A DNA stretch of 64,000 nucleotides from Bdellovibrionales bacterium (GTDB lineage Bacteria; Bdellovibrionota; UBA1018; CAIMNF01). The position numbers and the translations under genes are program-made. Location of the stretch: assembly GCA_947502835.1 (NCBI GenBank), contig CANNBJ010000005.1, forward strand, positions 166,429 through 230,428, given 5' to 3'. Each line of letters opens with the position of its first letter. The stretch's first letter is position 1. The notes under the pieces are model-generated. The model ran no database searches. It saw only the letters and a list, made by a program, of their open reading frames with translations, and had not been told where the DNA came from. This document shows positions 42,097 to 56,773 of this stretch, in pieces.

Positions 42097-42978
42097 TTAA
42101 AGGTCGGATTGGAGGATTTTGCGAAGTTTTTCTGCCAGTTCCTCGAGTTCCTTGTGTTCGTCGGACTTTCGGAGAACGAGTCTTTGCTCGGAGCTCTCGG
42201 AGAGGCCATTCACGAACTTCCTGAAGGCATGGATCGGGCCTGCGATCCGGTGGGAGAATACGATCGACAGGAAAAAAGTCACAGACAGGAAAAGCAAAAG
42301 GAGGGGTGAGATTCCGATCAAATACGCAAGCCCCGCATCACGGGTGTCTTGATGAAGCACGTGAGTGAGAAAGGTGAATGAGAATATGGTCAGAACCAGA
42401 AATGCAAAGAAGACGATCGACGTCGTGAAGATTGCAATCCGCAATTGAAGGCCCCGATTGATGAGAAGTGTTTTCCGGCTTGAGTCCGGGTGCCAGATGA
42501 GATCCCGGTCGCGGATCAGGGAGAAGACGGTAAGCGAGGTCGCAATCCACATCATGCCATCCGCAAGATTGAAATAGACGAGATCTGCACCCATCCGAAG
42601 GCAGATGAAATCAATCGCACCCCCGAGAAGGGTTCGGTCAATGGAGTTTCCGGCGATGGAAGCAAGAAGAAGGGTCAGCGAAAAACGAAGCATCTTCAAA
42701 GGATTGCTGAGCAGGTTTTGAATGATGAAGTAGGCGAAGGCCAAGAGAGCAAAAAGAGAAGTCGTGAATACCACTCGCGCCATGACCGATACATCGCTCA
42801 GGGTCTGGAAAATGAATCCTGGATTCCGGTGGGCCTCGAAAAACACAAAAGAGGGAAGAGATGAATTCAATATGGAGAGGGATTCGACCGAGTGCTTTGA
42901 GACCTGATCCAGTGTGATACAGCCGAAAAAAATGGCAATTTTCAGGATGAATTCGCGGTTGATTCTCATTCCAGACAA
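42097..42978 (-). CDS. lspA: Signal peptidase II (LspA) fused to a HAMP-like segment
   Basis: A 293-residue protein. The first 160 residues match signal peptidase II: LDQVSKHSVE, HRNPGFIFQ, the catalytic Asp in SIAGNSIDRTLLGGAIDF and the second in YFNLADGMMW. The C-terminal 110 residues add two more hydrophobic helices (about 175-200 and 205-235) and a HAMP-like stretch, SHRIAGPIHAFRKFVNGLSE, with a coiled tail. The catalytic pair is kept, so it could still cleave prolipoproteins. It is not adjacent to ileS. Fusion to HAMP is unusual. Confidence 0.75.
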   Translation of the reverse strand: MSGMRINREFILKIAIFFGCITLDQVSKHSVESLSILNSSLPSFVFFEAHRNPGFIFQTLSDVSVMARVVFTTSLFALLAFAYFIIQNLLSNPLKMLRFSLTLLLASIAGNSIDRTLLGGAIDFICLRMGADLVYFNLADGMMWIATSLTVFSLIRDRDLIWHPDSSRKTLLINRGLQLRIAIFTTSIVFFAFLVLTIFSFTFLTHVLHQDTRDAGLAYLIGISPLLLLFLSVTFFLSIVFSHRIAGPIHAFRKFVNGLSESSEQRLVLRKSDEHKELEELAEKLRKILQSDL

Positions 42979-43069: not shown

Positions 43070-43900
43070 CTATGGAGCCGCGCTCAAATCCAAGGGGTGA
43101 GCTGCGGTTCCCAGGAGCAAAAGAGTGTGAGGCTGATCAACGGTCACAAGATAAGGTCCATAAGTCACACTCGCCGCGGTTTTCGTCGGGAGAAAGAGTG
43201 TGACGGACCGAATCCCCGGCGGAACCTTCTCGAAGAGAAATGCCCCCGCATCGGAGGACTCGATGGTGTAGGACTTGGTGCCGACGTCTCCCGTTGCCGG
43301 ATCCGGAAGGTTGAGCTCCACCTCAAGGGATCCGCTCCAGGGGTTTCCCTGATCGAGGATCAGGCCATGGAGATTGTATTTCTGTCGGAGAAGAGGAATG
43401 GTGAGTGTGATGTCGGAATTCAATCCAAACCCCCCGGCCGCCTGATCCGCTCCATAGCTTGTGAGAGTGGCAGGATCCGAATCCGGATCGTAGACATAGG
43501 AGTTTCCCCACGCATCCTTGGAGTAATCCACTCCCCCCGCGCCTTGATCGAACAGGTAGGGTCCATTCCATCCGGTTCCCATGCGAAATTCAGGAGTGAT
43601 CTTCCACGCATTCAGGTCGTTTGGTTGTTGCCAAAGTGCGCTCAGCCCGTGCGCCGTGGTCGGGATGGATCCAAGATCGCCAAGGTATCCAAAGGAAACC
43701 TTGGTGGAACTCGAAAGTTTCTCACCGAGCAGGGCACCCCTGATTGTCATCATTTGGGCCAGAGTGCGGTCGTATTTGGCCTGATCGAGCGAGTCCCCGA
43801 TCGGAACCAGCGAAAGAGTCGCGAGGATTCCAATCAAACCCACCACCATCAACGTCTCAATCAGGGTAAATCCGCGGCTTCCACGCATCAATGCCAGCAT
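43070..43900 (-). CDS. Long pseudopilin with extra C-terminal beta domain
   Basis: About 276 residues from the ATG at 43900; the ATG at 43888 is possible. The prepilin signal is RGFTLIETLMVVGLIGILA with Glu at position 5 after cleavage. A GspG-like domain follows (GWNGPYLF, DAWGNSYVYDP). A C-terminal domain of about 95 residues (LHGLILDQGNPWSG, GAFLFEKVPPGIRSVTLFLP) resembles carboxypeptidase-regulatory/Ig-like beta folds. The protein at 55952 is its paralogue. It is divergent from the MshN-like gene. Confidence 0.78.
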   Translation of the reverse strand: MLALMRGSRGFTLIETLMVVGLIGILATLSLVPIGDSLDQAKYDRTLAQMMTIRGALLGEKLSSSTKVSFGYLGDLGSIPTTAHGLSALWQQPNDLNAWKITPEFRMGTGWNGPYLFDQGAGGVDYSKDAWGNSYVYDPDSDPATLTSYGADQAAGGFGLNSDITLTIPLLRQKYNLHGLILDQGNPWSGSLEVELNLPDPATGDVGTKSYTIESSDAGAFLFEKVPPGIRSVTLFLPTKTAASVTYGPYLVTVDQPHTLLLLGTAAHPLDLSAAP

Positions 43901-43983
43901 ACCAGACCTGTGGCGGGTGTGACACATGGTCAAAAGAGCTCAAGATTCTGACGCGAGCGCCGAAAAGCTATCAGGGAAGGCGC

Positions 43984-44895
43984 ATGAGCAAGGTTCTGAA
44001 ACAGCTTTTCAAAGACGAGTGGGAGAGTTCGGGGAAGAAGTCCTCGCACTTGCGCCTCGTTCCGCCTCCACCCCCTCCCCCGGATTTTGGCCGTCTTCAC
44101 CTCAAACCCGTGAAAATGCCGAAGGTCAAGAAGACCAGGCTTTATGTTTTGTTCAGTGTTTTTTTATGCGTTTCCGCCTATTCGTACTGGCTGATTACCG
44201 AGGGAAGACGTCTGGATCGGGCGGTGACTTATCAGAGGAAGGTGATTCCAAAGCGTTCCGTGATCCAAGGGGTGAGGCCCGCACGCACCGAGCCCATGGT
44301 CGAAATGGACGAGGAGAAGGAGATCTCCGAGGCTTCGCTCAAATTGAATCGCGAGGGAATGGAGCTTTTCAAGAATCAAAAATTCGCCGAGGCTGCCACG
44401 CTGTTTGCCCGCTCTGCAGAGATCGACCCCCTGAACCCTCTCTCGCTCATCAATCTCGGGATGGCAAAGGCGCGATCAAGAGAGCTGAAGGAAGCAAAAG
44501 AGATTCTCACCAAGGCCGGAAAACTCCTTGGTTCCGCCTCTCCCCTTGCCGGCTCCCCGAAGCTCGAGGTCGTGTACAACAACATCGGCTCAATCGATCT
44601 TGAGGAGAAGAGTTTTGGACCCGCGATCCTGTATTTTCAGAAAGCGATTCAGCTCAATCCCGAGTATATCGATGCACGTCTCAACCTTGCCAAGGCACTG
44701 GAGCTCGCGGGGCGTCCCGTCGACGCAGCCCGGGAGTACCAGGAGTTTATCGACAATGGCCGTTTGAATCCGGCCTTGAAGCCGGCAATTCAGAAACGCC
44801 TCGCGAAACTGAATGCATTCTTGGGTTACCTCAAGGAGGAAGAGGCGGCGATCAAGGCCGAAAAGGAACTTCTTGAGACTGACGATCTGGAGTGA
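43984..44895 (+). CDS. MshN-like membrane TPR protein of the pilus system
   Basis: A 303-residue protein. A cytoplasmic tail with a run of seven prolines (about 27-33) precedes one membrane helix (about 49-71). The periplasmic part (about 110-280) consists of TPR repeats. This one-helix-plus-TPR layout matches MshN of MSHA pili. The polyproline run suggests a need for elongation factor P. It converges with the MshE/PilB gene. Confidence 0.7.
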   Translation: MSKVLKQLFKDEWESSGKKSSHLRLVPPPPPPPDFGRLHLKPVKMPKVKKTRLYVLFSVFLCVSAYSYWLITEGRRLDRAVTYQRKVIPKRSVIQGVRPARTEPMVEMDEEKEISEASLKLNREGMELFKNQKFAEAATLFARSAEIDPLNPLSLINLGMAKARSRELKEAKEILTKAGKLLGSASPLAGSPKLEVVYNNIGSIDLEEKSFGPAILYFQKAIQLNPEYIDARLNLAKALELAGRPVDAAREYQEFIDNGRLNPALKPAIQKRLAKLNAFLGYLKEEEAAIKAEKELLETDDLE

Positions 44896-44913
44896 TCCGG
44901 GACCTCCCGGAAT

Positions 44914-46662
44914 CTAGAGGGTTGCCTTCAGGACCTCTTCAATTGAAGTGATTCCCGCAACAATCTTTGCAACCCCGTCCTGACGCATACTGATGAATCC
45001 GTTTTCCATGAGATGCTGGAGAATCTCGCTCTCCGGCTTTCTTTCAATGAATGCGCGGCGTACAACATCATCGACGCGCATCAACTCAAAAAGAGCGATC
45101 CGGTTTTGATATCCGGAATGAAGGCATTTTTCACACCCGACAGGTTCGTAAACTGGTGTCCCGGCCTTCAGGAAGCGGGTTCCGAGGATCTTCGCATCGG
45201 CTTCCGAGAGAGGCACCCGCTTTCGACAGTGCACGCACAGGACACGCACAAGTCGTTGCGCAAGAATCGCACTCAAGCCGGACGCAAGCAGAAAGGGTTC
45301 CACGCCCATGTCCATCAAGCGGGTGGGTGTGCTGACTGCATCATTCGTATGGATCGTGCTCAGGACCAGGTGACCGGTCAGGGCGGCGCGAATCGCAAGA
45401 TCGGCAGTCTCCTGGTCCCTGACTTCCCCGATCATCACAATGTCCGGATCTTGTCGCAGGATGTTCCGGAGAAGTCCGGCAAAGGAAAGGCCAGCCTTTT
45501 CGTTCACCTGAACTTGGTTGATTACGTCGAATTTGAACTCGATCGGATCCTCCACAGTGATGATATTCTTTTCGATCGCATTGATCTGATTGAGCATCGA
45601 GTACAGGGTGGTTGTCTTTCCGCTTCCCGTGGGACCTGTGATGAAAATGATTCCGTGCGGACGTTGCAGAAGAGTCTGCACTTCCCCTTCGATTTCCGGA
45701 CTCATCCCGATCTGGGAAAGATTTCCCTTCATTTTCTCCTTGTCGAGAAGACGAAGTACCAGTTTCTCCCCGTAGGCTGTCGGCAAGGTCGAAACCCGGA
45801 TGTCAACGGGCCTCGTACCCCCGGAATGGTGGAATCCGCCATCTTGGGGTTGCCTTCGCTCGGAAATGTCGAGATTGGAGAGCACCTTGATCCGTGATGC
45901 GACGCTTTGATGCAACTCGGGCGGGTAGGAGTACAGCTCGTGGAGGATCCCGTCGATCCTCCCGCGAACGCGAACCTTCTCCTCCGCGGGATCAATGTGG
46001 ATGTCGCTTGCACGATCCATCAAGGCGCGGCCGATGAACTTGTTCACGAGGGATTCGATCGAGGGGGCCGAATCCTTATAGGGTCCGACAACCGCAGTCA
46101 GGCTCAGAGATGTTTTTTTGCGGGATTGCTTCTTGGAGAGATGTTTTACGATCTTGTCCACCGAATGCTCGTCGTTGTAGATCCGGCCCACTGCATTCTC
46201 GATTTGCGATTTCGGACTGATTCTCAGCTCGATTTGACCCGGAAGAATGCTCTTCAGGTTCTCGAGTTTCAAGAATTGGATCGGATCATGGGAGGTGAGG
46301 GTCATCACTCCGTCCTCGAAACTCACGGGTAGAAGTGAAAAGTTCCTCGCCATGCGTTCCGGAAGATGCCTTGAAAGATCGGAGTCCAAAGGGACTCCCT
46401 CGAGATTCAGGTAGGGGATTTCGTATTGGGCTGAAAGAGCCTGTGCAACTTGGTCCTCCGAGAGCAGCCCCTCGGCCAGGAGAAGGTCCCCAAGGCGCAT
46501 TCGTTTTTCAGCACTTCTTTCCAGGGCAGAGTCAATCTGTTCCTGATTCAGGAACTTCAAATCGTGCAAGACTTCACCGAATTTTCGGTGGGTGCTGAGT
46601 GAGAATGATTTTTTCTCTGCGGGACTCCCCATGTTGGAAGTATCGGAATTCATCGGGAACAT
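44914..46662 (-). CDS. Type IV pilus/type II secretion assembly ATPase (MshE/PilB/GspE)
   Basis: A 582-residue ATPase. The N-terminal MshEN-type domain (about 20-160) is present. The C-terminal motor has Walker A GPTGSGKTTTLYSML, the Asp box, Walker B RQDPDIVMIGEVRD and LVLSTIHTNDAVSTPTRL, and the CxxC pairs CVHCRKRV and CEKCLHSG of the zinc-binding region. It powers pilus assembly on the cytoplasmic side. No retraction ATPase (PilT) is in the window. It diverges from the pilin at 46838. Confidence 0.93.
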   Translation of the reverse strand: MFPMNSDTSNMGSPAEKKSFSLSTHRKFGEVLHDLKFLNQEQIDSALERSAEKRMRLGDLLLAEGLLSEDQVAQALSAQYEIPYLNLEGVPLDSDLSRHLPERMARNFSLLPVSFEDGVMTLTSHDPIQFLKLENLKSILPGQIELRISPKSQIENAVGRIYNDEHSVDKIVKHLSKKQSRKKTSLSLTAVVGPYKDSAPSIESLVNKFIGRALMDRASDIHIDPAEEKVRVRGRIDGILHELYSYPPELHQSVASRIKVLSNLDISERRQPQDGGFHHSGGTRPVDIRVSTLPTAYGEKLVLRLLDKEKMKGNLSQIGMSPEIEGEVQTLLQRPHGIIFITGPTGSGKTTTLYSMLNQINAIEKNIITVEDPIEFKFDVINQVQVNEKAGLSFAGLLRNILRQDPDIVMIGEVRDQETADLAIRAALTGHLVLSTIHTNDAVSTPTRLMDMGVEPFLLASGLSAILAQRLVRVLCVHCRKRVPLSEADAKILGTRFLKAGTPVYEPVGCEKCLHSGYQNRIALFELMRVDDVVRRAFIERKPESEILQHLMENGFISMRQDGVAKIVAGITSIEEVLKATL

Positions 46663-46775
46663 CTTGATTTTCTCTTTTCAGGAAACCGTCCGGTTTTTGA
46701 CGCGCGAGCCGATCTTGACGCATACAAATTACATTTTTTGACCTTTTTGCACTTTTAATGGCTGTAATTTTCAAA

Positions 46776-46809
46776 AATCTGTCTGATGATGGAAATGACA
46801 GGATTTTTT
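46776..46809 (+). promoter_or_regulatory. Terminator-like stem-loop in the leader of the first pilin gene
   Basis: AATCTGTC (46776-46783) pairs with GACA-G-GATT (46797-46805) with one bulged G, and a T-run follows. It lies about 30 bases before the GTG start and just upstream of the GGAGATGAA ribosome binding site. The upstream gene runs the other way, so a terminator is not expected here. A matching structure precedes the pilin at 54395. Confidence 0.4.
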
Positions 46810-46837
46810 GTAGTGAATCTTTTTTGGAGATGAACGC

Positions 46838-47353
46838 GTGTTGAAAACAAATCGTATCCAGGAACAAGGTTTTACCCTGATTGAATTGTTGATGGTCATT
46901 TTGGTCATCGGCGTCCTTGCCGCCATGGGGATTTCACAGTTTGTGAATTTCGGTAAAGATGCGAAAGATTCGGCTTTGAAAGCCAATCTGCAGCTCATCC
47001 GGAGAGGGATCTCCGCACAGAACGGGATGATGAGGGTGCGCTGCGGAGTGACCACCGCATCTTTCCCGGATGTACAGAGTATTGAAGCCAATGACATCGC
47101 CGACGGAAACTCCACATGCAACACGACCATGATTCCGAACACCGAGGACCGCAAGTTCGTATCCGGTGATGAATTGCCAAACAATCCGTGGACTGCTGCC
47201 GGAGACGATGCAAACGATGTTCACACGGATTGCACTTTGGCAACCCGGGCAGTGGGTGCGACTGACGGAGGCTGGTGCTACGACTCGGCCACCGGAACTT
47301 TTTGGGCCAATACAGCCAACAATGGCGACACCCCCGCCGAGAATCTTTTCTAA
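46838..47353 (+). CDS. Type IV prepilin (major pilin candidate)
   Basis: A 171-residue prepilin with a GTG start after GGAGAT. The leader ends at QEQG and is followed by FTLIELLMVILVIGVLAAMGISQF with Glu5. The C-terminal part has cysteines (GWCYDSATGTFWAN) that can form the pilin disulfide loop. It is a close paralogue of the 54395 pilin (shared NLQ..RR.IS..NGMMR.RC). A small stem-loop (about 47366-47384) lies in the 89-base gap before the next gene. Confidence 0.9.
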   Translation: MLKTNRIQEQGFTLIELLMVILVIGVLAAMGISQFVNFGKDAKDSALKANLQLIRRGISAQNGMMRVRCGVTTASFPDVQSIEANDIADGNSTCNTTMIPNTEDRKFVSGDELPNNPWTAAGDDANDVHTDCTLATRAVGATDGGWCYDSATGTFWANTANNGDTPAENLF

Positions 47354-47442
47354 ATACGTCAATGGTCCGCCGCAACTCGCGGAATCAAAAATAAATTCAG
47401 GCCCTTCAAGGGAAATTCCGAAAGGATTTCAGAGAAGGGCTT

Positions 47443-48297
47443 ATGAAGAACTACTATAGCAAATTCTTCAATCTTGAAATCAATCCGTTCGGTGAGACGC
47501 CGGATCCGGATTTCTACTACGCTTCCGCTCAACACAATCGCGCCATTCGCGATCTCGATGGCGCCTTGAGGCAGGGAAAAGGGTTCAGTCTCCTCACTGG
47601 AGAAGTGGGGACAGGCAAGACTCTTCTTGCCCGCATGGTTCTCGGGCTGCATGCTCCGATCGCAAATACTGCTCTCATTCTTTTCCCCAAATTCAACGAG
47701 CTAGAGCTTCTGCAGGCGATCTGCGAGGAGTTCGAGATCCCTGCTCCTCCGGAATCCCACCCCACTGCGAAGGCGTATGTGGATCATCTCAATCGCTTCT
47801 TGCTGTCCAGCCTCGATGCGGGGCGGCCCTCGGTTCTCGTGATTGATGAGGCCCAGGCACTGAATCGCGAGGCACTGGAGACAATTCGCCTCCTCACGAA
47901 CCTTGAAACGAAAACCCGCAAACTTCTTCAGATCATCCTTGTCGGACAGCCCGAGTTGAATGAAATCCTGGATCGTCCGGATCTCCGTCAACTCAAACAG
48001 CGAATCGGGACGCACGCTTCCTTGAGCGGACTTGATCGGAGTGAGACCGATCGCTACATCAAGAGTCGCATTGAACAGGTCGTAAAGGGGAACTTCATCA
48101 AGTTCGACCCGGCGTCCGTGAGAGCCATTCATGAGCTCAGTGCGGGTGTTCCCCGCAGGATCAATCAGATTTGCGAGCGCATTCTCGCATTTGCGGAGGT
48201 TTCACGGGCCCGGTTGGTCGATGCTTCGACTGTTCGGGAGGCCCTCGGGATCAAACCGAAGTCCATCTTCTCGATTTTTCAAAGGGGATCTGCATGA
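47443..48297 (+). CDS. MshM/ExeA-like AAA ATPase
   Basis: A 284-residue AAA ATPase. It starts with the typical YYSKFFNLEINPFGETPDPDFYYAS, has Walker A TGEVGTGKTLLAR and Walker B VLVIDEAQALN, and ends in a winged-helix region (GVPRRINQICERILAFA). MshM of MSHA pili and ExeA of type II secretion belong here; ExeA, with a peptidoglycan-binding partner, helps insert the secretin. Its stop overlaps the PilM start (ATGA). Confidence 0.88.
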   Translation: MKNYYSKFFNLEINPFGETPDPDFYYASAQHNRAIRDLDGALRQGKGFSLLTGEVGTGKTLLARMVLGLHAPIANTALILFPKFNELELLQAICEEFEIPAPPESHPTAKAYVDHLNRFLLSSLDAGRPSVLVIDEAQALNREALETIRLLTNLETKTRKLLQIILVGQPELNEILDRPDLRQLKQRIGTHASLSGLDRSETDRYIKSRIEQVVKGNFIKFDPASVRAIHELSAGVPRRINQICERILAFAEVSRARLVDASTVREALGIKPKSIFSIFQRGSA

Positions 48298-49364
48298 GTT
48301 GGTTCAAGAAGGACATACTGGGGGTGGATTTGGGAGCGCGCACCTTGAAGGGTGTGAAGCTGAAACAGGACAAAACCGGCAGAGTGATCCTCTCGCGGCA
48401 TTTTTTCCAGGACTTGGCGCTGACATCCGAGAGTTTTCCCGAGCGCACCAACCAGGATGAGGCATTCAGGGCCGCAATCGAGGTTCAGCGACTGAAGTCC
48501 GCTTACTCGGCCAGTTCCGTGCGGGATGCTGATGTCATTTCGCTCAGCCTTGAACTTCCCAAGATGAGTGACAAGGAATTGAAAAAAGCGGTTCCCCTCG
48601 AGATCGCGGAGATGTCGGGGATTTCGGCCGATGATCACAGCGTGGATTATCTTGTGACGAAAGGGCCGGAAAACAATCCCGAGGTGATCGGGATCAAGGC
48701 ATACTGCGTGAAGAAAGACCTGGTTCTCAGTCAGATCAAACAAATGAAGGATGCAGGATTGAGGCCGGAGGCCATCGAGTCCGAGATGATGGCCATCCGG
48801 GCAATGCTCGATTTCAATCACTACCTCGACCCGAAGGAAGTCGTCATGGTGATTGACCTTGGAGAGGGGCATGTGACCTCGGCACTGATTGCGGATGGAA
48901 TGCTTGCCTACACACGGGATCACGGAACCGGATTCGGCAAGATCAATCTGGCGCTCAGGGACTCACTGGGATTGTCCTATTCGGATGCGGAGAGTGCGAA
49001 GCTTGCGTATGATTTCTTGTCCGCACCCGAGGAAACCCCACTCAACCGCACCATGGATGAAGTTTTCACCGGGATTTTCAAGAGCATCAAGGATTCCATG
49101 GATTTCTACAAGGAATGCGTGGAGAGCCGCGGTCGGATCGACCGGATCCTCCTGGTCGGGGGCGGCAGCCAGATCAAGGGAATCGACAAGATACATCAGA
49201 TTTTCTTCCGCATCCCCACAACCATTGTGAATCCCTTCCGGAACATTGATGTATTTTCCGGACTGGATGAATCCGAACACGAGGAGATCTCGAAGATCGG
49301 TCATCATATGGCCACTGCTGTTGGGCTGGCCCTTCAGGGCATTCCAGTGAAGGGGGCTGCATGA
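48294..49364 (+). CDS. pilM: PilM/MshI-like actin-fold pilus assembly protein
   Basis: A 356-residue actin-like ATPase with phosphate-1 region LGVDLGARTLKGVKL, KKAVPLEIAEMSG, VIDLGEGHVTSALIADGML and RILLVGGGSQIKGI. PilM sits on the cytoplasmic face and links PilN to the motor. Its start and stop both overlap neighbours (ATGA), so the 47443-52958 genes are tightly coupled. Confidence 0.88.
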   Translation: MSWFKKDILGVDLGARTLKGVKLKQDKTGRVILSRHFFQDLALTSESFPERTNQDEAFRAAIEVQRLKSAYSASSVRDADVISLSLELPKMSDKELKKAVPLEIAEMSGISADDHSVDYLVTKGPENNPEVIGIKAYCVKKDLVLSQIKQMKDAGLRPEAIESEMMAIRAMLDFNHYLDPKEVVMVIDLGEGHVTSALIADGMLAYTRDHGTGFGKINLALRDSLGLSYSDAESAKLAYDFLSAPEETPLNRTMDEVFTGIFKSIKDSMDFYKECVESRGRIDRILLVGGGSQIKGIDKIHQIFFRIPTTIVNPFRNIDVFSGLDESEHEEISKIGHHMATAVGLALQGIPVKGAA

Positions 49365-50017
49365 ACGCCGGGACAACGCGGATCAACTTCATGCCCAGGA
49401 CATCGGGACTCACGGCAAGCCGTGCAGTCATTGCATTCATTTTCCTTGGTGCATTGGGTGCCGGGGTATTGAGTCTGGAGTTTGAGCACAGCAAGATTGA
49501 AACCGCCGGCCCCGGGATTTCCACTCCTGTCCACCAGCCGGAGATGGTGATGAGAGCCGAGTCCAAGGAAATTGTGCCGGAAGTCTCTTCAAGGGTCCTT
49601 GGAATGCCCGGGGTCGGGAGGCTTCTTGAAGCGGGTGCCAAAGGGATTCTTGCGCTGGAGCTGAGATCCGATGATTTCTTCCAGGTGGGGACTGCCAATC
49701 TTCAGGAGAACTCCCTGTCTTCCGTTCGTGATCTTGCAGTGTTGCTGCGCGAAACTTTTGCTGAGGCACGAATCGAAATCGAGGGTCACACTGACGAATC
49801 CCCCGTTGTGAAGCAGCGCAAATTTTTTCCAAGCAATTGGGAGTTGTCCGCCGCACGGGCTGCCTCGCTTCTCCATGTTTTCGAGCGAGCCGGATTTCGC
49901 AAGGAGAGACTCAAAATCGTTGCATTCGGGGATTCCCGGCCGGTCGCTTCCGACGGCCCCGCGAATCGAAGGCTTGTGGTTCGTGTGAGCTATCCTGATC
50001 AGGGGGAGGGTGGTTGA
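49361..50017 (+). CDS. OmpA/MotB-domain protein within the pilus operon
   Basis: A 218-residue protein with one membrane helix (about 21-39) and a C-terminal OmpA-like domain (about 95-210). The peptidoglycan-binding signature is visible: IEIEGHTDESPV, NWELSAARAASLLHVFERAGF, IVAFGDSRPVASDG and ANRRLVV. It should hold the pilus machine to the cell wall. This position between PilM and PilN is not standard in PilMNOPQ or MSHA operons. Confidence 0.82.
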   Translation: MNAGTTRINFMPRTSGLTASRAVIAFIFLGALGAGVLSLEFEHSKIETAGPGISTPVHQPEMVMRAESKEIVPEVSSRVLGMPGVGRLLEAGAKGILALELRSDDFFQVGTANLQENSLSSVRDLAVLLRETFAEARIEIEGHTDESPVVKQRKFFPSNWELSAARAASLLHVFERAGFRKERLKIVAFGDSRPVASDGPANRRLVVRVSYPDQGEGG

Positions 50018-50021
50018 TCGA

Positions 50022-50603
50022 ATGATGCGCAAACACCTGAACTTCATTCCCAAAGAGCTGCGACCCCGGGTGGAGATTCCGCATGAGATTCTTCCTGCCG
50101 TCCTGGTGCTGTTTGCTTTTGTGTATGTGCTCATGGGGCCTGTTCGCATTTCATTCCTCACCAAATCCAATCTCAAGGAACTGGCTGAAATGCAGACGAT
50201 TCAGCAGGATCTCGAGAAAAAAATGAAGAGCATCTCCGAGGCGGACAAGATCACCCGGCAGAACAATGAAAGTTTCAAGGCGATCGAAAAAGTCCTGGGT
50301 CGCAAGAATTACTGGTCCGAGATCTTCAAGGAAATGAGCATGCTGATTCCGGACGGCGTCTGGTTGACCAACTTCACCCATCAGGGAGTCAAGGGTGGCG
50401 GCAAGGTCCCGGACCAGCTTCTTGTGAAGGGGGAATCCACAAGTCAACTCGGCATGGTGAAGTTCCTGGCGATTCTCGAAAAGTCGCATTATTTCTCGGG
50501 AGCCCGTCTGGTCTCGTCTGAGAGAATGAAAGACGTGAGACCCGCAAAATTCAGGTTTGAGTTTACCATTCCGGTGAGGGCCGGGACGGGGGGTAGAGGA
50601 TGA
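50022..50603 (+). CDS. pilN: PilN-like pilus assembly protein
   Basis: About 193 residues from ATG 50022; a GTG at 50010 is too close to the GGGAGG. It has a short cytoplasmic N-terminus (NFIPKEL), one membrane helix (about 24-42), a coiled coil and an alpha/beta periplasmic domain (WLTNFTHQG, LLVKGES, FSGARLVSSERMK), as in PilN/GspL C-terminal domains. PilN binds PilM through its N-terminus and pairs with PilO. Confidence 0.72.
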   Translation: MMRKHLNFIPKELRPRVEIPHEILPAVLVLFAFVYVLMGPVRISFLTKSNLKELAEMQTIQQDLEKKMKSISEADKITRQNNESFKAIEKVLGRKNYWSEIFKEMSMLIPDGVWLTNFTHQGVKGGGKVPDQLLVKGESTSQLGMVKFLAILEKSHYFSGARLVSSERMKDVRPAKFRFEFTIPVRAGTGGRG

Positions 50604-51157
50604 AATTCCCCGGCAAACGGAAATTGAAATGGACCGAGTCCCTTTTGATCAGCCTATTCTCGGTGGTGGCATTGATGGCTTTCGAGAGATTCTGGCAGAA
50701 GCCGCACTCAAAGGAGCTGAAGGAGCTCGAGGCGAAGGTCGCTTCCACACGGAAAAGCATCGAGGAGGCGAAAAAGATTTTGGATGACTTGAAAAGCAGG
50801 GCGCCGGCTTCCCAGGACAATCAAACCACGCAATCCCTTTTTCACCGGTATCTGTCCGCAAATGATCGGTTTTCCAGTGTGGTCATGGGGATTTTTTCGG
50901 GATCCAAGGAGTATGACTTCGCGGTTCAGAAGATCTCCGCCTTGCAGTCGAATCGGTTCGAGGGATACACGCAGACACTCTACTCGCTGGAGGCGGAATC
51001 CAATTTCATTGCGATTGGAAAGTTTCTTGAAAACCTGGAGGACTCGCCCTTGCTGACCGAGATCGAATCCATCGACATTGCCAGAATTGAAAATGAGCTC
51101 AAGCAATGCAAGGCCAGCATCCGGCTGTACGGGTATGTCGGAGGGGGAACGCCATGA
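50600..51157 (+). CDS. pilO: PilO-like pilus assembly protein
   Basis: A 185-residue protein with one membrane helix (about 13-30), a coiled coil (about 40-70) and an alpha/beta periplasmic domain (FAVQKISALQSNRFEGYTQTLYSLEAESNFIAIGKFLENLEDSPLLTEIESIDI) as in PilO/GspM. It overlaps PilN and the next gene by 4 bases each. Confidence 0.7.
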   Translation: MKFPGKRKLKWTESLLISLFSVVALMAFERFWQKPHSKELKELEAKVASTRKSIEEAKKILDDLKSRAPASQDNQTTQSLFHRYLSANDRFSSVVMGIFSGSKEYDFAVQKISALQSNRFEGYTQTLYSLEAESNFIAIGKFLENLEDSPLLTEIESIDIARIENELKQCKASIRLYGYVGGGTP

Positions 51158-51579
51158 GCACAGCACGACTGCTCATCCTGTTTGTCCTCCTCTTCCTGGT
51201 TCGCTCCCGGGCATTCGCGGAAAGCGAGCAAGGCTTCGATGTGATTTCGGATGTGGACTATGGATTCATCATGGGACAGCCGAGGATTCCCTGGGGGGAG
51301 GACCCGTTTTCTAGAATCCCGGGGTTTGCTTCGGTACCTTCGGTCGAGGAAAAGTTCACCCTCGGTGGGATCATCTTCAGCAAGCAGAGCCCCTCAGCGG
51401 TCGTGAACGGGAAGATGGTTCAGGAGGGAGACCTCATCGGAACCCGTATTGTGAAACGAATTGGTGAAAATTATGTCATTTTGAAGCGGAAGCAATCCGA
51501 GATCGAACTCACATTGCCTCCTGTTTCGGATGAGTTCCCGGATGATGACCGGGATGAACTCGAGGAGGATTCGCAATGA
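51154..51579 (+). CDS. PilP/GspC-like periplasmic alignment protein
   Basis: A 141-residue protein with a signal peptide or membrane anchor (about 1-22). The C-terminal part, FTLGGIIFSKQSPSAVVNGKMVQEGDLIG...VKRIGENYVILKRKQSEIELTLP, matches the homology region of PilP, GspC and MshK-type proteins, which bind the secretin. The acidic tail is DDDRDELEEDS. It overlaps PilO and the secretin by 4 bases each. Confidence 0.75.
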   Translation: MSTARLLILFVLLFLVRSRAFAESEQGFDVISDVDYGFIMGQPRIPWGEDPFSRIPGFASVPSVEEKFTLGGIIFSKQSPSAVVNGKMVQEGDLIGTRIVKRIGENYVILKRKQSEIELTLPPVSDEFPDDDRDELEEDSQ

Positions 51580-52958
51580 TCCGTGGGAATAGATTTGGTT
51601 TGGGATGGGTCCTTGTCGCAATGCTTGCACTTTTGCCGGTGAAGAGCTTCTCGCAGATGGATTCCGAGATGAGCGTGAATGTGAGGGATACACCCCTTCG
51701 CGGCGTGCTGGAAATGATTGCAGCACGCACAGGCTTGTCACTTGTCCTGGCGCAGGAACCCACGGTGAATGTGACTTTGTCGCAATCGGGTGTCACACCC
51801 CGCCAGCTTCTCGATTTCCTCGCGCGTGACCAGCAGATCGAATACACGATTTCTGGATCGCAACTCATCATCACCAAGCGGTTTGTCGGAGGCGGGATCG
51901 GGGATTCCCATCTGCTCCATTTGAGATACGCACCCGCTGCGGATGTCTCAGCGAAGATCAAGAGCGTCATGGGGGGGGATGAAAAAATCCTTGTGGATGA
52001 GCGGGAGAACAACCTGATTTTCCTCGGCTCGCGCGTGAATTTCGAAAAGCTCAAGTCTCTTGCGGCCATGTTCGATGTGGCGCCAAAACAAATCCTGATT
52101 GAAGGATTGATTGTCGAAACCTCGCACAATTTCATCCGTCAACTCGGAATCTCCATGTTGGGCTACGGGAGCCGGACGACGACCCCCGGTCCGAACAATC
52201 CCAATGCGGCATTCAAGACGGTGCTCACTGGGATCAATGCAAAGACCCTTGAAATCCGGCTGAATGCGGCCGAAACGAACGGCGATGCAAAGGTGATTTC
52301 AAGGCCGAAAGTAACCACCTTGAACAACAAGCCTGCGACGATCCAAAGCGGCATCACCTTCTTTGTCAAAACATTGAGTAACGTTCTCACCACCGATCGA
52401 CCCATGGGGAATGTCGGCATGGCCGGAGGCGTGGGTGCTGTCGGCGCGGGTGCGGGTGGCGCAGGCGGTGTGGGCGGTCTCGGAATGGTGGCAGGCGGTG
52501 TGACCTCGCTGCAGGCCGGGCTCAACCTGAACATCCTTCCCATCCTGGTGGGGGATGATGAAATCAAATTGAACGTCGACATCAACAACTCGACCTCGGA
52601 TGTGGGAAGTTCGGTGGACGGAATTCCGGGGATTCTGAAAAACTCGGCCAATACCACCGTGATTGTTCGGGACAAGCAGACGGCGGTCATCGCGGGTTTG
52701 ATCAAACAGAACAAGGCCAAAACCAGCGGAGGGGTGCCGTTTCTTCAAGACATTCCCTTGCTCGGGCTTTTGTTCAAGTCCCGCGAGGTCATCGATCAGA
52801 ACAACGAGCTGGTGATCTTTCTCACACCGACGATCGGCAATCCCGAGAACGCGAAGACAGATTCTTACGCGGGTGAGAACGGGGGCGGCGTCGAAGCGGC
52901 GAGCCGGGAACCCTCCAGTGACAGGACCTTGCCGGAGATGGCGCCTTCGCGGCATTGA
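51576..52958 (+). CDS. Secretin (PilQ/MshL/GspD family) with a glycine-rich insert
   Basis: A 460-residue outer-membrane secretin with a signal peptide (about 1-26) and short N domains (STN-like MSVNVRDTPLRGVLEMIAARTGLSLVLAQEPTVNVTL, then an N1-like domain LRYAPAADVSAKIKSVMGGDEKILVDERENNLIFLG). The C-terminal barrel has VGSSVDGIPGILKNSANTTVIVRDKQTAVIAGL and VPFLQDIPLLGLLFKSRE. A Gly/Ala-rich insert occupies about 277-308. It forms the outer-membrane channel for the pilus. Confidence 0.92.
   Translation: MIRGNRFGLGWVLVAMLALLPVKSFSQMDSEMSVNVRDTPLRGVLEMIAARTGLSLVLAQEPTVNVTLSQSGVTPRQLLDFLARDQQIEYTISGSQLIITKRFVGGGIGDSHLLHLRYAPAADVSAKIKSVMGGDEKILVDERENNLIFLGSRVNFEKLKSLAAMFDVAPKQILIEGLIVETSHNFIRQLGISMLGYGSRTTTPGPNNPNAAFKTVLTGINAKTLEIRLNAAETNGDAKVISRPKVTTLNNKPATIQSGITFFVKTLSNVLTTDRPMGNVGMAGGVGAVGAGAGGAGGVGGLGMVAGGVTSLQAGLNLNILPILVGDDEIKLNVDINNSTSDVGSSVDGIPGILKNSANTTVIVRDKQTAVIAGLIKQNKAKTSGGVPFLQDIPLLGLLFKSREVIDQNNELVIFLTPTIGNPENAKTDSYAGENGGGVEAASREPSSDRTLPEMAPSRH
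52404..52499 (+). repeat. Low-complexity Gly/Ala/Val-rich coding insert in the secretin
   Basis: About 32 codons made mostly of Gly, Ala and Val (GNVGMAGGVGAVGAGAGGAG...) with repeated GGCGG-type units. They fall between barrel strands near the periplasmic gate region of the secretin. Confidence 0.75.
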
Positions 52959-52962
52959 GCAT

Positions 52963-54192
52963 TCATTTCGGCTTGATGACCGAATTCATTTTCCAGATGG
53001 GCAGGAATACTGCAAGTGCAAGCACGAGCACGCACACGAAGATCATGAACAGAAGGATTGGCTCCAGCGCCTTTGAGAGATTCTCGAGCAGGTAATTGAG
53101 TTGCACATGATAGTAACGGCCCAGTCGCTTCAGGATCGGGGAGAGTCGGCCTGTTTCCTCTCCGATGTTGATCAGGTTTCGAAGAGTGTGCGGAAAAATC
53201 GGGTGTTTTTCCATGCCCTTTGTAAGGCTTCCGCCCTTGGAGATTTCGATCTGGAACTCCCCGAGCGCATTCTTGAAGAGCTGGTTTTTCTGGGATCCCT
53301 TCAGTGTTTCCAGTGACTCCAGCAAGGGGATTCCGCTTGAAATCAAGAGCTCGAGGATGACGCAAAAGTTGTTGAGCTCCAGAAAAAGGAGCACTTTTCC
53401 CACGGCGGGAAGCTTGAGGATCGCGCGGTCGAACCAGAGTCGTCCCCGCGATGTCCCGAGGAATTTGCGAAAACCGAGGTATCCGGCGTAGGAGACGGCA
53501 AGGATGACGTGCCAGTAGTGGATGAAAAAGTCCGATGTGCTCACGACAAACTGGGTAATCGGAGGAAGGTCGGAATTGAATGTTTTCAGGAACTGTTTGA
53601 TCTTCGGAATCACGAAATACACCATCACTATGACCACGAAGATCATCGCGACTGCCACGATTTTCGGATAGTACATGGCGGACTTCACCTTTTCGCGATT
53701 CTCAGACTCCTGCTCGAGGAGTTGCGTGATCCTGCCCAGGGTCTCGTCGAGTTTTCCGGTCACTTCTCCCGTTCGGATCAGTCCGATCACAGTCGGATCA
53801 AAGATGTCGGGATGCTTGGCAAAAGCGCCGTGCAAGGTTCCTCCGTCCGTGATGTCGAGAAGGATTTGGGCGATGGCTTGTTTCAGGCGGGGGTTTTGCA
53901 CTTCCTCTTGAAGCAGAGTGAACATCTTCATGATGGGAATCCCTACCGAAATGCCCATCTCGATCTCACTCATGAGGGTGATTTTCTCCTCAAGTGAAAC
54001 ACTTCGCGTGAGTTTTTCAACGGAGTCGTTCGCCTCATTTAACATGAGGCGGAGATTGAATCGTCCCAGTTCCAAGGGAATCAGGCTCTGCCGGGAAAGA
54101 TCTTTGCGCGCAAGCCATTCGTTTTCAGCGCGAACGGAGCCCTCAATGATCTCGCCCTTGCGATTCCGGGCGCGGTAGTAGAATTTCCCCAT
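52963..54192 (-). CDS. Inner-membrane platform protein (MshG/PilC/GspF)
   Basis: A 409-residue protein with two repeated GspF domains. The first has IEMGISVGIPIMKMFTLL and GLIRTGEVTGKLDETLGRI; the second has LELLISSGIPLLESLETLKGSQ and IGEETGRLSPILKRL. Three or four membrane helices occur near 175-195, 225-245 and 375-400. It couples the ATPase to pilin extraction. It is convergent with the secretin gene (4-base gap). Confidence 0.93.
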   Translation of the reverse strand: MGKFYYRARNRKGEIIEGSVRAENEWLARKDLSRQSLIPLELGRFNLRLMLNEANDSVEKLTRSVSLEEKITLMSEIEMGISVGIPIMKMFTLLQEEVQNPRLKQAIAQILLDITDGGTLHGAFAKHPDIFDPTVIGLIRTGEVTGKLDETLGRITQLLEQESENREKVKSAMYYPKIVAVAMIFVVIVMVYFVIPKIKQFLKTFNSDLPPITQFVVSTSDFFIHYWHVILAVSYAGYLGFRKFLGTSRGRLWFDRAILKLPAVGKVLLFLELNNFCVILELLISSGIPLLESLETLKGSQKNQLFKNALGEFQIEISKGGSLTKGMEKHPIFPHTLRNLINIGEETGRLSPILKRLGRYYHVQLNYLLENLSKALEPILLFMIFVCVLVLALAVFLPIWKMNSVIKPK

Positions 54193-54304
54193 GACCCCTT
54201 CAGTGTACCCCGACTCGGCCCCGAATCTCCACCTTAACCAAGGATGTCAAGCACTTGTCAAGGGGTTGACGATGTCAAAAAAAATGAAGGGTTCACAGCA
54301 TTTA

Positions 54305-54352
54305 GCTATACTCAAGTCCAATCCTCTGGCTATACTTGAATCAAACTTGAAT
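54305..54352 (+). promoter_or_regulatory. Repeated boxes upstream of the second pilin gene
   Basis: GCTATACT occurs at 54305-54312 and 54329-54336 (24-base spacing). ACTTGAAT occurs at 54334-54341 and 54345-54352 (11-base spacing, one helical turn), with the inverted-type ACTCAAGT at 54310-54317. TATACT could be a -10. This suggests a promoter with a bound regulator. Confidence 0.35.
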
Positions 54353-54356
54353 TTGT

Positions 54357-54382
54357 GATCCTCGTGCGTTGAGGATTTTTTT
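54357..54382 (+). promoter_or_regulatory. Terminator-like stem-loop in the leader of the second pilin gene
   Basis: ATCCTC pairs with GAGGAT around GTGCGTT, and a run of seven T follows. It lies 12 bases before the GTG start, directly ahead of the GGGAGATGAA ribosome binding site. The nearest upstream gene is transcribed away, so this is not a normal gene-end terminator. Confidence 0.5.
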
Positions 54383-54394
54383 GGGAGATGAATT

Positions 54395-55021
54395 GTGGAA
54401 AAACTCAATCAGTCGAATCAAAAAGGATTTACTCTCATTGAATTGCTGATGGTGATCTTGGTGATCGCCATTCTCGCGGTGATCGGGATCACCCAGTTTG
54501 TGAATTACGGGAAAGACTCCCGGGATGCCGCCACCAAGTCGAATCTTCAAATTCTGAGAAGAGCCATCTCTGAAAAGAACGGAATGATGCGACTCCGATG
54601 CAACATTCAAACCACCGAGTTTCCGCCAGTTGGAACTCTGAATGCAAATAATATTACCGCTCTCGCAGCTGGGACATACACCCAGGGAACCGTTTCCGGA
54701 ACTGTAGCTCCCTGCAATACCACGACCCAGGTTCCGAACGTGGTGGATCAACTCTTCGTATCGGCTGGAATTCCTGTGAATCCGTGGTCTTCCGACATCC
54801 AGACCAGCGAAGCCAACAGCAAGCTGGTCACGGAGTGTGCCGGTGCAGGGTGTGCGGTGATGGGATCACGTTGTAACCAGGCATGTGACGGTAACGCCTA
54901 TGCGGGAACCGAGAACGGTTGGTGCTACAATCCAACTACGGGTGAAATCTGGGCCAACACGGCACGGAATGACGGTGACAACCCTGCTGTGGCAGATGCC
55001 GATGACGAGTGTTCGTACTAA
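54395..55021 (+). CDS. Type IV prepilin (major pilin candidate)
   Basis: A 208-residue prepilin with a GTG start and GGGAGATGAA. Cleavage after KG gives FTLIELLMVILVIAILAVIGITQFVNYG with Glu5. It has several cysteines and the C-terminal loop NGWCYNPTTGEIWANTARNDGDNPA shared with the 46838 pilin. It begins a plus-strand run of four prepilin-like genes. Confidence 0.9.
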   Translation: MEKLNQSNQKGFTLIELLMVILVIAILAVIGITQFVNYGKDSRDAATKSNLQILRRAISEKNGMMRLRCNIQTTEFPPVGTLNANNITALAAGTYTQGTVSGTVAPCNTTTQVPNVVDQLFVSAGIPVNPWSSDIQTSEANSKLVTECAGAGCAVMGSRCNQACDGNAYAGTENGWCYNPTTGEIWANTARNDGDNPAVADADDECSY

Positions 55022-55052
55022 GTGATCCGAGTCTCGTTCCGGGTGGAGCGAC

Positions 55053-55517
55053 ATGAGAAGAACGCAAGGATTTACCCTGATCGAATTGTTGATGGTGATC
55101 CTTGTTGTCTCTGTTTTGGCTACCATAGCCGTTTCCGTATTCGTCGACTTCGGGCATGACGCGAAGATCGCGATCACCAAGGACAGGATGAATCTGATCA
55201 AGCTCGCAATCCTCGGAGATTCAAGACTTGTTTCAGGGGGAAAATACACGAAACCCGGGTTTCTGGCCCATTGTCTGGTCGTCCCCGCCGATCTGACCGA
55301 ATTGACGAACCAGCCGGGAGCAGGGGCCTGTGCAAGCGATTACAATCCCCACACACAGCAAGGATGGAAGGGGCCTTATGTTTCCACGTCTGATGCTGAG
55401 ATTTTCAATGATGCCTGGGGAGAGGCGCTCATCTACGATGGTACTGGACGAACGATCACCAGCAGCGGACCGGATCAGAGTCCCTCAACGAGCGATGACA
55501 TTGTCGTTTCATTCTAA
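55053..55517 (+). CDS. Type IV prepilin-like protein
   Basis: A 154-residue prepilin with a short leader (MRRTQG) and FTLIELLMVILVVSVLATIAVSVF with Glu5. GspG-like features appear at the C-terminus: GWKGPYV, DAWGEALIYDGTGRTITSSGPD. GGTGGAG precedes the ATG. It overlaps the next gene by 23 bases. Confidence 0.87.
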   Translation: MRRTQGFTLIELLMVILVVSVLATIAVSVFVDFGHDAKIAITKDRMNLIKLAILGDSRLVSGGKYTKPGFLAHCLVVPADLTELTNQPGAGACASDYNPHTQQGWKGPYVSTSDAEIFNDAWGEALIYDGTGRTITSSGPDQSPSTSDDIVVSF

Positions 55518-55965
55518 ACTTCCGGATCGCAGAGGTTTCTCCCTCATCAGCATGATGCTGGTGATTCTCGCCATTTCCCTTGCTGCAGTGTTGGTGTTGT
55601 CCCTTGCTCCCCCTTCGATCTTCCTGACCCGGACGGTTCAGACGCGCGATCGCCTTTCGGATTTGAAGGGAGCAATCCTGAAATACTACGACGACCATGG
55701 CGGGTTTTACCCTGTCCTCCTGGATCTTCTTGTGCTCGATGAGGGAATTCCCTGTGAGATTGACAACGACCCGGGAAGTCCCACCTATCAAAAATTGCAA
55801 GGCTGGTGCGGGCCGTATCTCGATCCTGTGTTTGCCGAGGATGCAAACGACTTTCAAACCGATGGTTGGGGAACCCTCTTTGAGTACGACCCCTTGACCG
55901 GTGCCATGAACAGTTGCGGTCCTGATCTGAGTTGTGGAAATGGAGACGACATTGCGGATCCCTGA
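55495..55965 (+). CDS. Minor pseudopilin lacking Glu5
   Basis: From the ATG at 55495, 156 residues. The leader (MTLSFHSKLPDRRG) is followed by FSLISMMLVILAISLAAVLVLSLA, where Ser replaces the usual Glu at position 5. The C-terminal part has WCGPYLDPVF and DGWGTLFEYDPLTGAMNSCGPDLSCGNGDD. Missing Glu5 is typical of tip subunits such as GspK. Confidence 0.8.
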   Translation: MTLSFHSKLPDRRGFSLISMMLVILAISLAAVLVLSLAPPSIFLTRTVQTRDRLSDLKGAILKYYDDHGGFYPVLLDLLVLDEGIPCEIDNDPGSPTYQKLQGWCGPYLDPVFAEDANDFQTDGWGTLFEYDPLTGAMNSCGPDLSCGNGDDIADP

Positions 55966-56773
55966 GAAAAATGCGAGCAATTCATTTGGATTTACGCTGA
56001 TCGAAGTGCTGATGGTGGTCGGGATCATCGCCATCCTCGCCCTTGCGTCCATGGATCTGTTTTCGGACTATGTGGATGAGGCGAGGTACCAGGACACCAT
56101 TTCGAAGCTCGAGCAATTGAAGATCGCCCTGGTCGGGGACCCCTCGATCCGGAATCAGGGAGGCCGCACAAGTTTCGGGATTTTCGGTGATCTTGGGGGT
56201 CTGCCGGCAGAGCCGACACCCGGACTTTCGGCACTGATCACCAATTCAACCTATCCCGCTCTTGCTCCGGACAACACGGTTCGAATCTCGGTGGGATGGA
56301 ATGGTCCCTACCTGACCCTTCCGAATGCGGGCGCGAGTGTGTCGACGGACGCATGGGGTACCCCCATTCAGTATGATCCATCAGGAAACCAACTCACGCT
56401 CACGTCTTTGGGGGCCAACAAGACATCAGGGGGCACCGGGTTGAATGCCGATCTCACGGTGAGTGTTCCGGCGGAAGCCTTGTTTTCAACGGTGACGGGG
56501 TTTGTTTGTGATCATGGAGGCCCCTTCGATGACAACGCCGAGATTCACCTGAACTATCCGGATGGATCGGGGGCGGTGAAACAAGACACTTTGGCGATCG
56601 CAGCCGGAGACAAGGGATTCTTCAAATTCACGATGATCCCTTTCGGGGTTCGGTCAATCACGATTTATCTTCCGAATCAGGGATCGGCTTCCCAGACCGT
56701 GGGTCCGGTGCTGATCACCGTGGACTCTCCCAATTTCACAGTACCTTGCAGGCAGATCGATATTGACCCCTGA
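55952..56773 (+). CDS. Long pseudopilin with extra C-terminal beta domain
   Basis: The TTG at 55952 has GGAG six bases upstream and gives 273 residues; an ATG at 55940 is the alternative. Prepilin motif is FGFTLIEVLMVVGIIAILA with Glu5. Then a GspG-like domain (GWNGPYLTL, DAWGTPIQYDPSGNQ) and a C-terminal beta domain (FFKFTMIPFGVRSITIYLP). It is clearly paralogous to 43070-43900. It overlaps the previous gene by 14 bases. Confidence 0.8.
   Translation: MRIPEKNASNSFGFTLIEVLMVVGIIAILALASMDLFSDYVDEARYQDTISKLEQLKIALVGDPSIRNQGGRTSFGIFGDLGGLPAEPTPGLSALITNSTYPALAPDNTVRISVGWNGPYLTLPNAGASVSTDAWGTPIQYDPSGNQLTLTSLGANKTSGGTGLNADLTVSVPAEALFSTVTGFVCDHGGPFDDNAEIHLNYPDGSGAVKQDTLAIAAGDKGFFKFTMIPFGVRSITIYLPNQGSASQTVGPVLITVDSPNFTVPCRQIDIDP

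Follow-up and report, generated by a model that had tools for sequence, protein, structure and literature searches.

A Bdellovibrionota type IV filament locus related to MSHA pili and probably encoding an adhesive pilus

What kind of machine is built by a gene cluster that combines features of mannose-sensitive hemagglutinin (MSH, MSHA) pili with GspG-like pseudopilins? The question is raised by a locus on contig CANNBJ010000005.1 of a Bdellovibrionales bacterium (assembly GCA_947502835.1; 2.73 Mb, 98% complete), which lies in a stretch of 64,000 nucleotides (positions 166,429 to 230,428), hereafter the window. A preliminary description had left it unclear whether a pilus, a pseudopilus or a secretion system is assembled. 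Our analysis narrows this toward an attachment pilus, given the modular prepilins, the absence of a prepilin peptidase gene that is normal for MSH loci and the presence of PilT and PilD elsewhere in the genome, with secretion remaining as the main rival. Its product is probably a type IV pilus for adhesion, belonging to a sister lineage of MSHA and using PilD and PilT encoded elsewhere.

The locus extends from pp1 (43070) to pp6 (56773), with genes on both strands. Gene-by-gene reading, Pfam and NCBIfam protein scans with curated cut-offs and comparison with orthologues recovered, present and open, every gene previously named: the prepilin gene pp1, an MshN-like tetratricopeptide repeat (TPR) protein, the MshE ATPase, pp2, an MshM/ExeA-type AAA ATPase, PilM, an OmpA-domain protein, PilN, PilO, a PilP/GspC-like protein, a secretin, the PilC platform and pp3 to pp6 (Table 1). 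Pfam matches were above cut-offs for all genes except PilO (20.5 against 22 bits), pp5 (N_methyl, 17.4 against 21.2) and the PilP-like protein (weak T2SSB), and these three calls were accepted because position and sequence are conserved in orthologous loci. Starts were revised for the TPR protein (~43984), the PilP-like protein (~51154) and pp5 (~55495). A chance origin of the gene set is excluded, since at least 11 other genomes conserve much the same genes, and the G+C content of the locus equals that of the window (53.5% vs 53.3%), so that composition shows no sign of recent import. Together these genes encode a full envelope-spanning machine, consisting of MshE, PilC/MshG, PilM-N-O with an MshK-like protein, a PilQ/MshL-type secretin, MshM, MshN and four kinds of prepilin.

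For the phylogenetic placement of this machine, MSH references were Aeromonas caviae and Legionella adelaidensis only. The Bdellovibrionota loci formed one clade each in the ATPase, platform and secretin trees (support 100/99 to 100/100). For the platform, Aeromonas MshG was the sister group of this clade (100/98), and placement with type II secretion systems (T2SS) was rejected (p 0.008). Concatenation of the three proteins (1423 columns) joined the focal clade to MSH (92/93) and rejected its union with T2SS (approximately unbiased, AU, test, p 0.015), while a 100/100 branch divided type IVa pili (T4aP) from focal, MSH and T2SS sequences; MSH plus T2SS excluding the focal clade was unrejected (p 0.14). 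Firm placement inside T4aP or T2SS, which had been set beforehand as the refuting outcome, did not occur. The earlier designation of the locus as MSHA-like also rests well on MshM, the TPR protein matching MshN (96% probability), the MshK-like protein and the ATPase with its MshEN domain. Profile comparisons with hhalign likewise placed the TPR protein nearest MshN and the PilP-like protein nearest MshK.

Although six prepilin-like proteins are present as described, this number is a detail of the lineage; they represent four conserved types (pp16, pp23, pp4 and pp5), with pp16 and pp23 duplicated in the genus of the window. The T2SSG domain or fold is found in four of the six. In pp1 and pp6 the GspG domain is followed by an extra domain, and in pp16 orthologues the addition is Laminin_G_3 in G002 (E 1e-31) and in G004 (4e-16, where it precedes the GspG part), whereas the G187 orthologue has Calx-beta and fn3. 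In the AlphaFold2 model of pp6, a pilin helix leads into a GspG part of poor model quality, and a beta-sandwich is predicted with confidence; Foldseek matches were to Vibrio GspG structures (probability 0.96-0.99, but E 0.02-0.06) and to Gram-positive pilin or CNA-B-type (CNA-B/prealbumin-like) sandwiches. A pilin domain joined to a non-pilin module is thus found by domain match in orthologues and by model only in pp6 of the window. Modular pilins were shown to be adhesive in Streptococcus sanguinis, where lectin-type modules are predicted to bind carbohydrate (PMC8179133). A surface-displayed pilus is favoured because the GspG-like prepilins are bimodular and bear adhesion modules in relatives.

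Glu5 is present in types pp16, pp23 and pp4 (one pp4 start being unresolved), while in every pp5 orthologue position +5 is Ser or Thr, or a Glu5 cannot be recognised. The T2SS tip subunit GspK is marked by a missing Glu5, and the Aeromonas MSHA prepilin in the MshP position likewise lacks it. By this trait, pp5 is a candidate tip subunit. The candidate shaft pilins, pp2 and pp3, weakly resemble an MSHA pilin of Aeromonas (~35 bits); the pp3 model (pLDDT 70, low-confidence tail) gave no Foldseek match. In G004 (L049 3369-8894), three tandem pp23-type pilins are followed by an ABC transporter set (ABC_tran, ABC2 membrane and ABC_transp_aux) inserted upstream of mshM.

Where, then, are the enzymes for prepilin maturation and pilus retraction? 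As first described, the window holds neither; MshE is the only T2SSE-family ATPase on the contig, which also has no A24 peptidase. The genome-wide search for pilT and PilB paralogues that had been suggested located them elsewhere. Two further assembly ATPases of the T4P/T2SS type exist. One, PilB, belongs to a canonical T4aP locus (C2) together with PilT, PilC, PilM-Q and the sole A24 prepilin peptidase (PilD) found in the genome; the other lies in a T2SS locus (C3). Additional ATPases of the PilT family are encoded at C4, and C3 also holds a Tad-like pair of ATPase and secretin. Beside T4aP and T2SS, the locus is a distinct type IV filament system, the third in the genome, and its parts share only ~24-40% identity with their T4aP counterparts there. 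A prepilin peptidase is systematically missing from MSH loci (PMC6668835), and both extension and retraction of Vibrio cholerae MSHA pili depend on PilT (PMC9815625). The absence of both enzymes from the locus, with their genes elsewhere in the genome, therefore counts as normal. It is worth mentioning that a single A24 peptidase (C2:450767-451096) is found in a genome with T4aP, T2SS, an MSHA-like system and Tad-like genes.

The locus is not confined to one genome. A PilM profile search of 291 genomes of the phylum gave bimodal scores that separate the PilM subfamily of the locus from T4aP PilM; it was present in 13 genomes at E<1e-50, and in 14 of the 291 when G251, with a syntenic locus, is added. 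Four of 12 genus members examined carry the locus. Among named relatives, metagenome-assembled genomes of Bdellovibrionales/Oligoflexia are closest, and others belong to Pseudobdellovibrionaceae. The gene set recurs sporadically in several other families, and the genus members form one clade in every tree; this distribution fits a system that was present early and has often been lost, although it may also have been transferred within the phylum. Synteny, proposed earlier as a check, proved to be conserved across families in gene set and order. Outside the genus the core reads mshM - TPR - pilM - pilN - pilO - pilP - secretin (- mshE), with mshM adjoining the TPR gene in most relatives, and adjoins pilC and a prepilin cassette pp23-pp4-pp5-pp16. 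Within the genus the TPR gene lies beside mshE, pp23 and pp16 have at least two copies each, and an OmpA gene stands between pilM and pilN in all four locus-bearing members; G193, a genome of the same taxonomic order, has an OmpA gene as well. Comparison across loci revealed no extra component shared by all beyond the genes listed.

Some loci depart from this plan. G002 has a second mshM copy (L048 11762-12643; 62% to the MshM of the window) next to the TPR gene, indicating duplication there, and G085 has two mshM-type genes in a rearranged locus (L093 1523-9321) with the pilO-pilP-secretin block apart from pilM-pilN. A ~130 aa open reading frame, unassigned in function, is conserved beside the locus in three genomes of family f15 (L094:16099-16488, L095:17052-17435 and L096:3141-3527). 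Outside the phylum, contigs were searched with a 7-row PilM alignment. A Nitrospirota match (L106) was rejected since it sits in a T4aP-type pilM cluster; Terrabacteria/Armatimonadetes matches showed only weak pilM/pilN/secretin similarity with no MshM or MshE of this system, and an Ideonella plasmid match was merely an ExeA/GspB pair.

The OmpA-domain protein has one transmembrane segment and a periplasmic peptidoglycan-binding domain retaining the HTD and NWELSxxRA residues, which we take to be MotB-like and peptidoglycan-binding. The secretin consists of N0, N1 and the secretin domain; the Pfam scan detected no AMIN, N2 or N3 domains in it and no peptidoglycan-binding domain in MshM. Because neither of these proteins has such a detectable domain, it is reasonable to suggest that the OmpA protein anchors the machine to peptidoglycan. 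On the motor side, MshE exceeds the cut-off of the c-di-GMP family model NF053729 (46.6 against 38 bits). The c-di-GMP-binding MshEN motif was published as 24 residues (PMC5013675); of its two half-motifs (RLGxx..LxxxLxxQ), II is intact and I is degenerate (KFG..K..S) in the window protein, and orthologues in most relatives depart further. As one half-motif is degenerate, control of MshE by c-di-GMP is possible but uncertain.

From these parts the following working order may be proposed. The genome's single PilD would mature the prepilins, and MshE with the platform would polymerise pp2/pp3 into the shaft. pp4, the Glu5-less pp5 and pp1/pp6 would form a priming or tip complex, with the pp1/pp6 heads exposed on the cell exterior as attachment sites. 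Secretin assembly would be aided by MshM and by MshN, the latter with a cytoplasmic N-terminal tail, one transmembrane segment and periplasmic TPRs; the OmpA protein would pin the inner-membrane complex to peptidoglycan, and PilT from elsewhere would retract the fibre, as in V. cholerae.

Several results weigh against an adhesive pilus sister to MSHA. The ATPase tree leans to MshE with support of only 81/86, and neither a T2SS (p 0.09) nor a T4aP alternative (p 0.22) is rejected. The secretin is nearest T4aP PilQ (89/75, without firm support) and is not grouped with MshL, MshL (AU p=0.33) and T2SS alternatives being unrejected; it scores 90 bits against the MshL model TIGR02519, far below the cut-off of 250, and its best NCBIfam score is PilQ. 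The PilM, PilN and secretin profiles are nearer T4aP than MSH, in a comparison biased by T4aP references from the same phylum as the locus. GspG-like subunits also constitute pseudopili, and pp2/pp3 are still only candidates for the shaft. Profile comparisons agree in suggesting a mosaic of MSH-like and T4aP-like parts.

How far do these points favour another machine? A short periplasmic pseudopilus pushing exoproteins, possibly the pp1/pp6 heads, through the secretin, like T2SS or atypical Geobacter systems, would explain the GspG domain or fold of most prepilins, a Glu5-less subunit recalling GspK, and GspE and GspF as the top single-family hidden Markov model (HMM) scores in NCBIfam for ATPase and platform, though both are below cut-off. 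Yet the concatenated and platform trees reject a T2SS placement, no GspL/GspM-type proteins are encoded (hhalign gives PilM to GspL P=17 and PilN/PilO to GspM P=2-3), a T2SS locus exists separately in the genome, relatives bear adhesion modules on their prepilins, and the Glu5-less prepilin has its parallel in Aeromonas MSHA. We regard secretion as unlikely, though it is the strongest competitor; judged from the genes alone, an adhesive pilus is the most likely product. The T4aP affinities of PilM, PilN and secretin could instead mean a second ordinary T4aP set, a duplicate of the canonical one with no special function. This is improbable in view of the low identity to the genome's own T4aP parts, the 100/100 branch, and MshM and MshN, which are not T4aP parts, in a genome already carrying a full T4aP locus. 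Least probable of all is a DNA-uptake pilus: T4aP-type machines often serve transformation, but the locus has no competence genes and its prepilins, with lectin- or Ig-like heads, give no hint of DNA binding.

A more tentative proposal can be made. Within the type IV filament superfamily the locus may represent a branch not described before, as sampled only in Bdellovibrionota, with T4aP-like alignment and secretin parts and an MSH-like motor side. Perhaps it is a surviving T4aP-MSH intermediate whose GspG-type pilins bear swappable lectin or Ig heads that attach to prey or surfaces, and to which one lineage added a MotB-like peptidoglycan anchor. The formal mapping of MSH pili covered Gammaproteobacteria, Epsilonproteobacteria and Chrysiogenetes (PMC6668835), and we found no described MSH-like pilus of Bdellovibrionota in the open-access literature, subscription literature being outside the search. 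The coherent MSH sister clade described here, with its modular adhesin-bearing pilins, lies in the phylum of predatory bacteria, offering a test case for the origin of MSH from T4aP and a concrete attachment candidate in lineages where pili matter for predation.

No Rfam riboswitch matched near pp2/pp3, a sub-threshold SAM-SAH match on the antisense strand of the secretin was dismissed as chance-level, promoter and terminator scans gave no more matches than in shuffles, and the regions upstream of pp2/pp3 aligned poorly among relatives. A terminator-like hairpin with a T-run (54357-54377; no Rfam match) lies directly before the pp3 ribosome-binding region. Beside the locus, a signal peptidase II gene (LspA; 42097-42978, minus strand; Pfam 1.5e-16) encodes an additional membrane segment at the C-terminus, followed by a tail that resembles HAMP by eye but not by Pfam; it adjoins the locus in G011 too (78%). 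A predicted secreted NHL-repeat beta-propeller protein (41000-42046, minus strand) also adjoins the locus and is found in G011 (50%).

Table 1. Genes of the locus, with positions in the window and supporting evidence (P, hhalign)
Feature	Position	Strand	Evidence
pp1 (paralogue of pp6), type pp16 prepilin with GspG fold and C-terminal head	43070..43921	-	T2SSG 1.3e-10, N_methyl 1.8e-05; conserved in G011, G002, G004
TPR protein, MshN counterpart	43984..44895	+	TPR families; transmembrane segment near residue 52; Aeromonas/Legionella MshN P=96
MshE extension/assembly ATPase with MshEN domain	44914..46662	-	T2SSE 1.9e-131, MshEN 8.9e-15; NF053729 above cut-off; tree
pp2 (paralogue of pp3), candidate shaft pilin of type pp23	46838..47353	+	N_methyl 2.1e-06; orthologues across phylum
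MshM, ExeA/MshM-type AAA ATPase	47443..48297	+	AAA_22 5.2e-26; ExeA and MshM P=100
PilM, distinct subfamily	48291..49364	+	PilM_2 4.7e-32; bimodal phylum scan
OmpA-domain protein	49361..50017	+	OmpA 2.5e-15; transmembrane segment at 16-42; alignment-invariant residues
PilN	50010..50603	+	PilN 2.7e-10
PilO	50600..51157	+	PilO 5.8e-04, below cut-off; PilO P=76, MshJ P=68
PilP/MshK-like periplasmic protein	51154..51579	+	T2SSB 1.4e-04; MshK P=96 vs GspC 62, PilP 64
Secretin, short	51576..52958	+	Secretin 2.7e-38, Secretin_N 5.6e-07, STN 1.6e-04
PilC/MshG inner-membrane platform	52963..54192	-	T2SSF 2.5e-51; sister to Aeromonas MshG
pp3, pilin type pp23	54395..55021	+	N_methyl 4e-08; 51% identical to pp2
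pp4, small GspG-like prepilin	55053..55517	+	N_methyl 2.4e-07; T2SSG 5.4e-04, just under cut-off
pp5, GspG-like prepilin without Glu5 (Ser at +5)	55495..55965	+	Orthologues likewise without Glu5
pp6, GspG-fold prepilin with C-terminal beta-sandwich head	55934..56773	+	T2SSG 2.5e-06; AlphaFold2, Foldseek

Finally, the locus can be set against the known systems. With the T4aP of its own genome (C2) it shares PilM, PilN, PilO and a PilQ-like secretin, but it forms a separate clade, has MshM/MshN and modular GspG-like prepilins and lacks PilT/PilD; PilB, PilC and PilQ of T4aP do not form a clade with it (100/100 separation), the secretin alone leaning to PilQ. With the genome's T2SS (C3) it shares GspG-fold prepilins and the Glu5-less prepilin, whereas placement with GspE/F/D is rejected (the concatenated AU test above), no match to GspC, GspL or GspM exists and prepilins of relatives carry adhesion modules. 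The Pelobacter carbinolicus Msh pilus (PMC3543383), an annotated case from outside Gammaproteobacteria with a major pilin and five minor ones, is alike by description only. As in the S. sanguinis PilB/PilC modular pilins (PMC8179133), a lectin-like or Ig-like module is grafted on a pilin domain, but the carrier here is a GspG-type prepilin within an MSH-like machine of a diderm. The nearest likeness is to MSHA of Vibrio, Aeromonas and Legionella, with MshE, MshG, MshM, MshN, MshK-like and PilN/O-like proteins encoded together in a locus that contains neither PilT nor a prepilin peptidase, a Glu5-less prepilin and a sister position in the platform and concatenated trees. Unlike MSHA, the secretin is outside the MshL family by HMM cut-off, PilM is nearer T4aP PilM than MshI, the prepilins are GspG-type and bimodular, and an OmpA protein is added in the genus of the window. 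Compared with the model of MSH given by Denise et al. 2019 (PMC6668835), the system has mshE, mshG and mshM in a single locus without prepilin peptidase, and by HMM cut-off it lacks an mshL-family secretin. Its gene order (M-N-I-I2-J-K-L-E) is a permutation of that in the Aeromonas reference locus, MshI-I2-J-K-L-M-N-E-G-F-prepilins.

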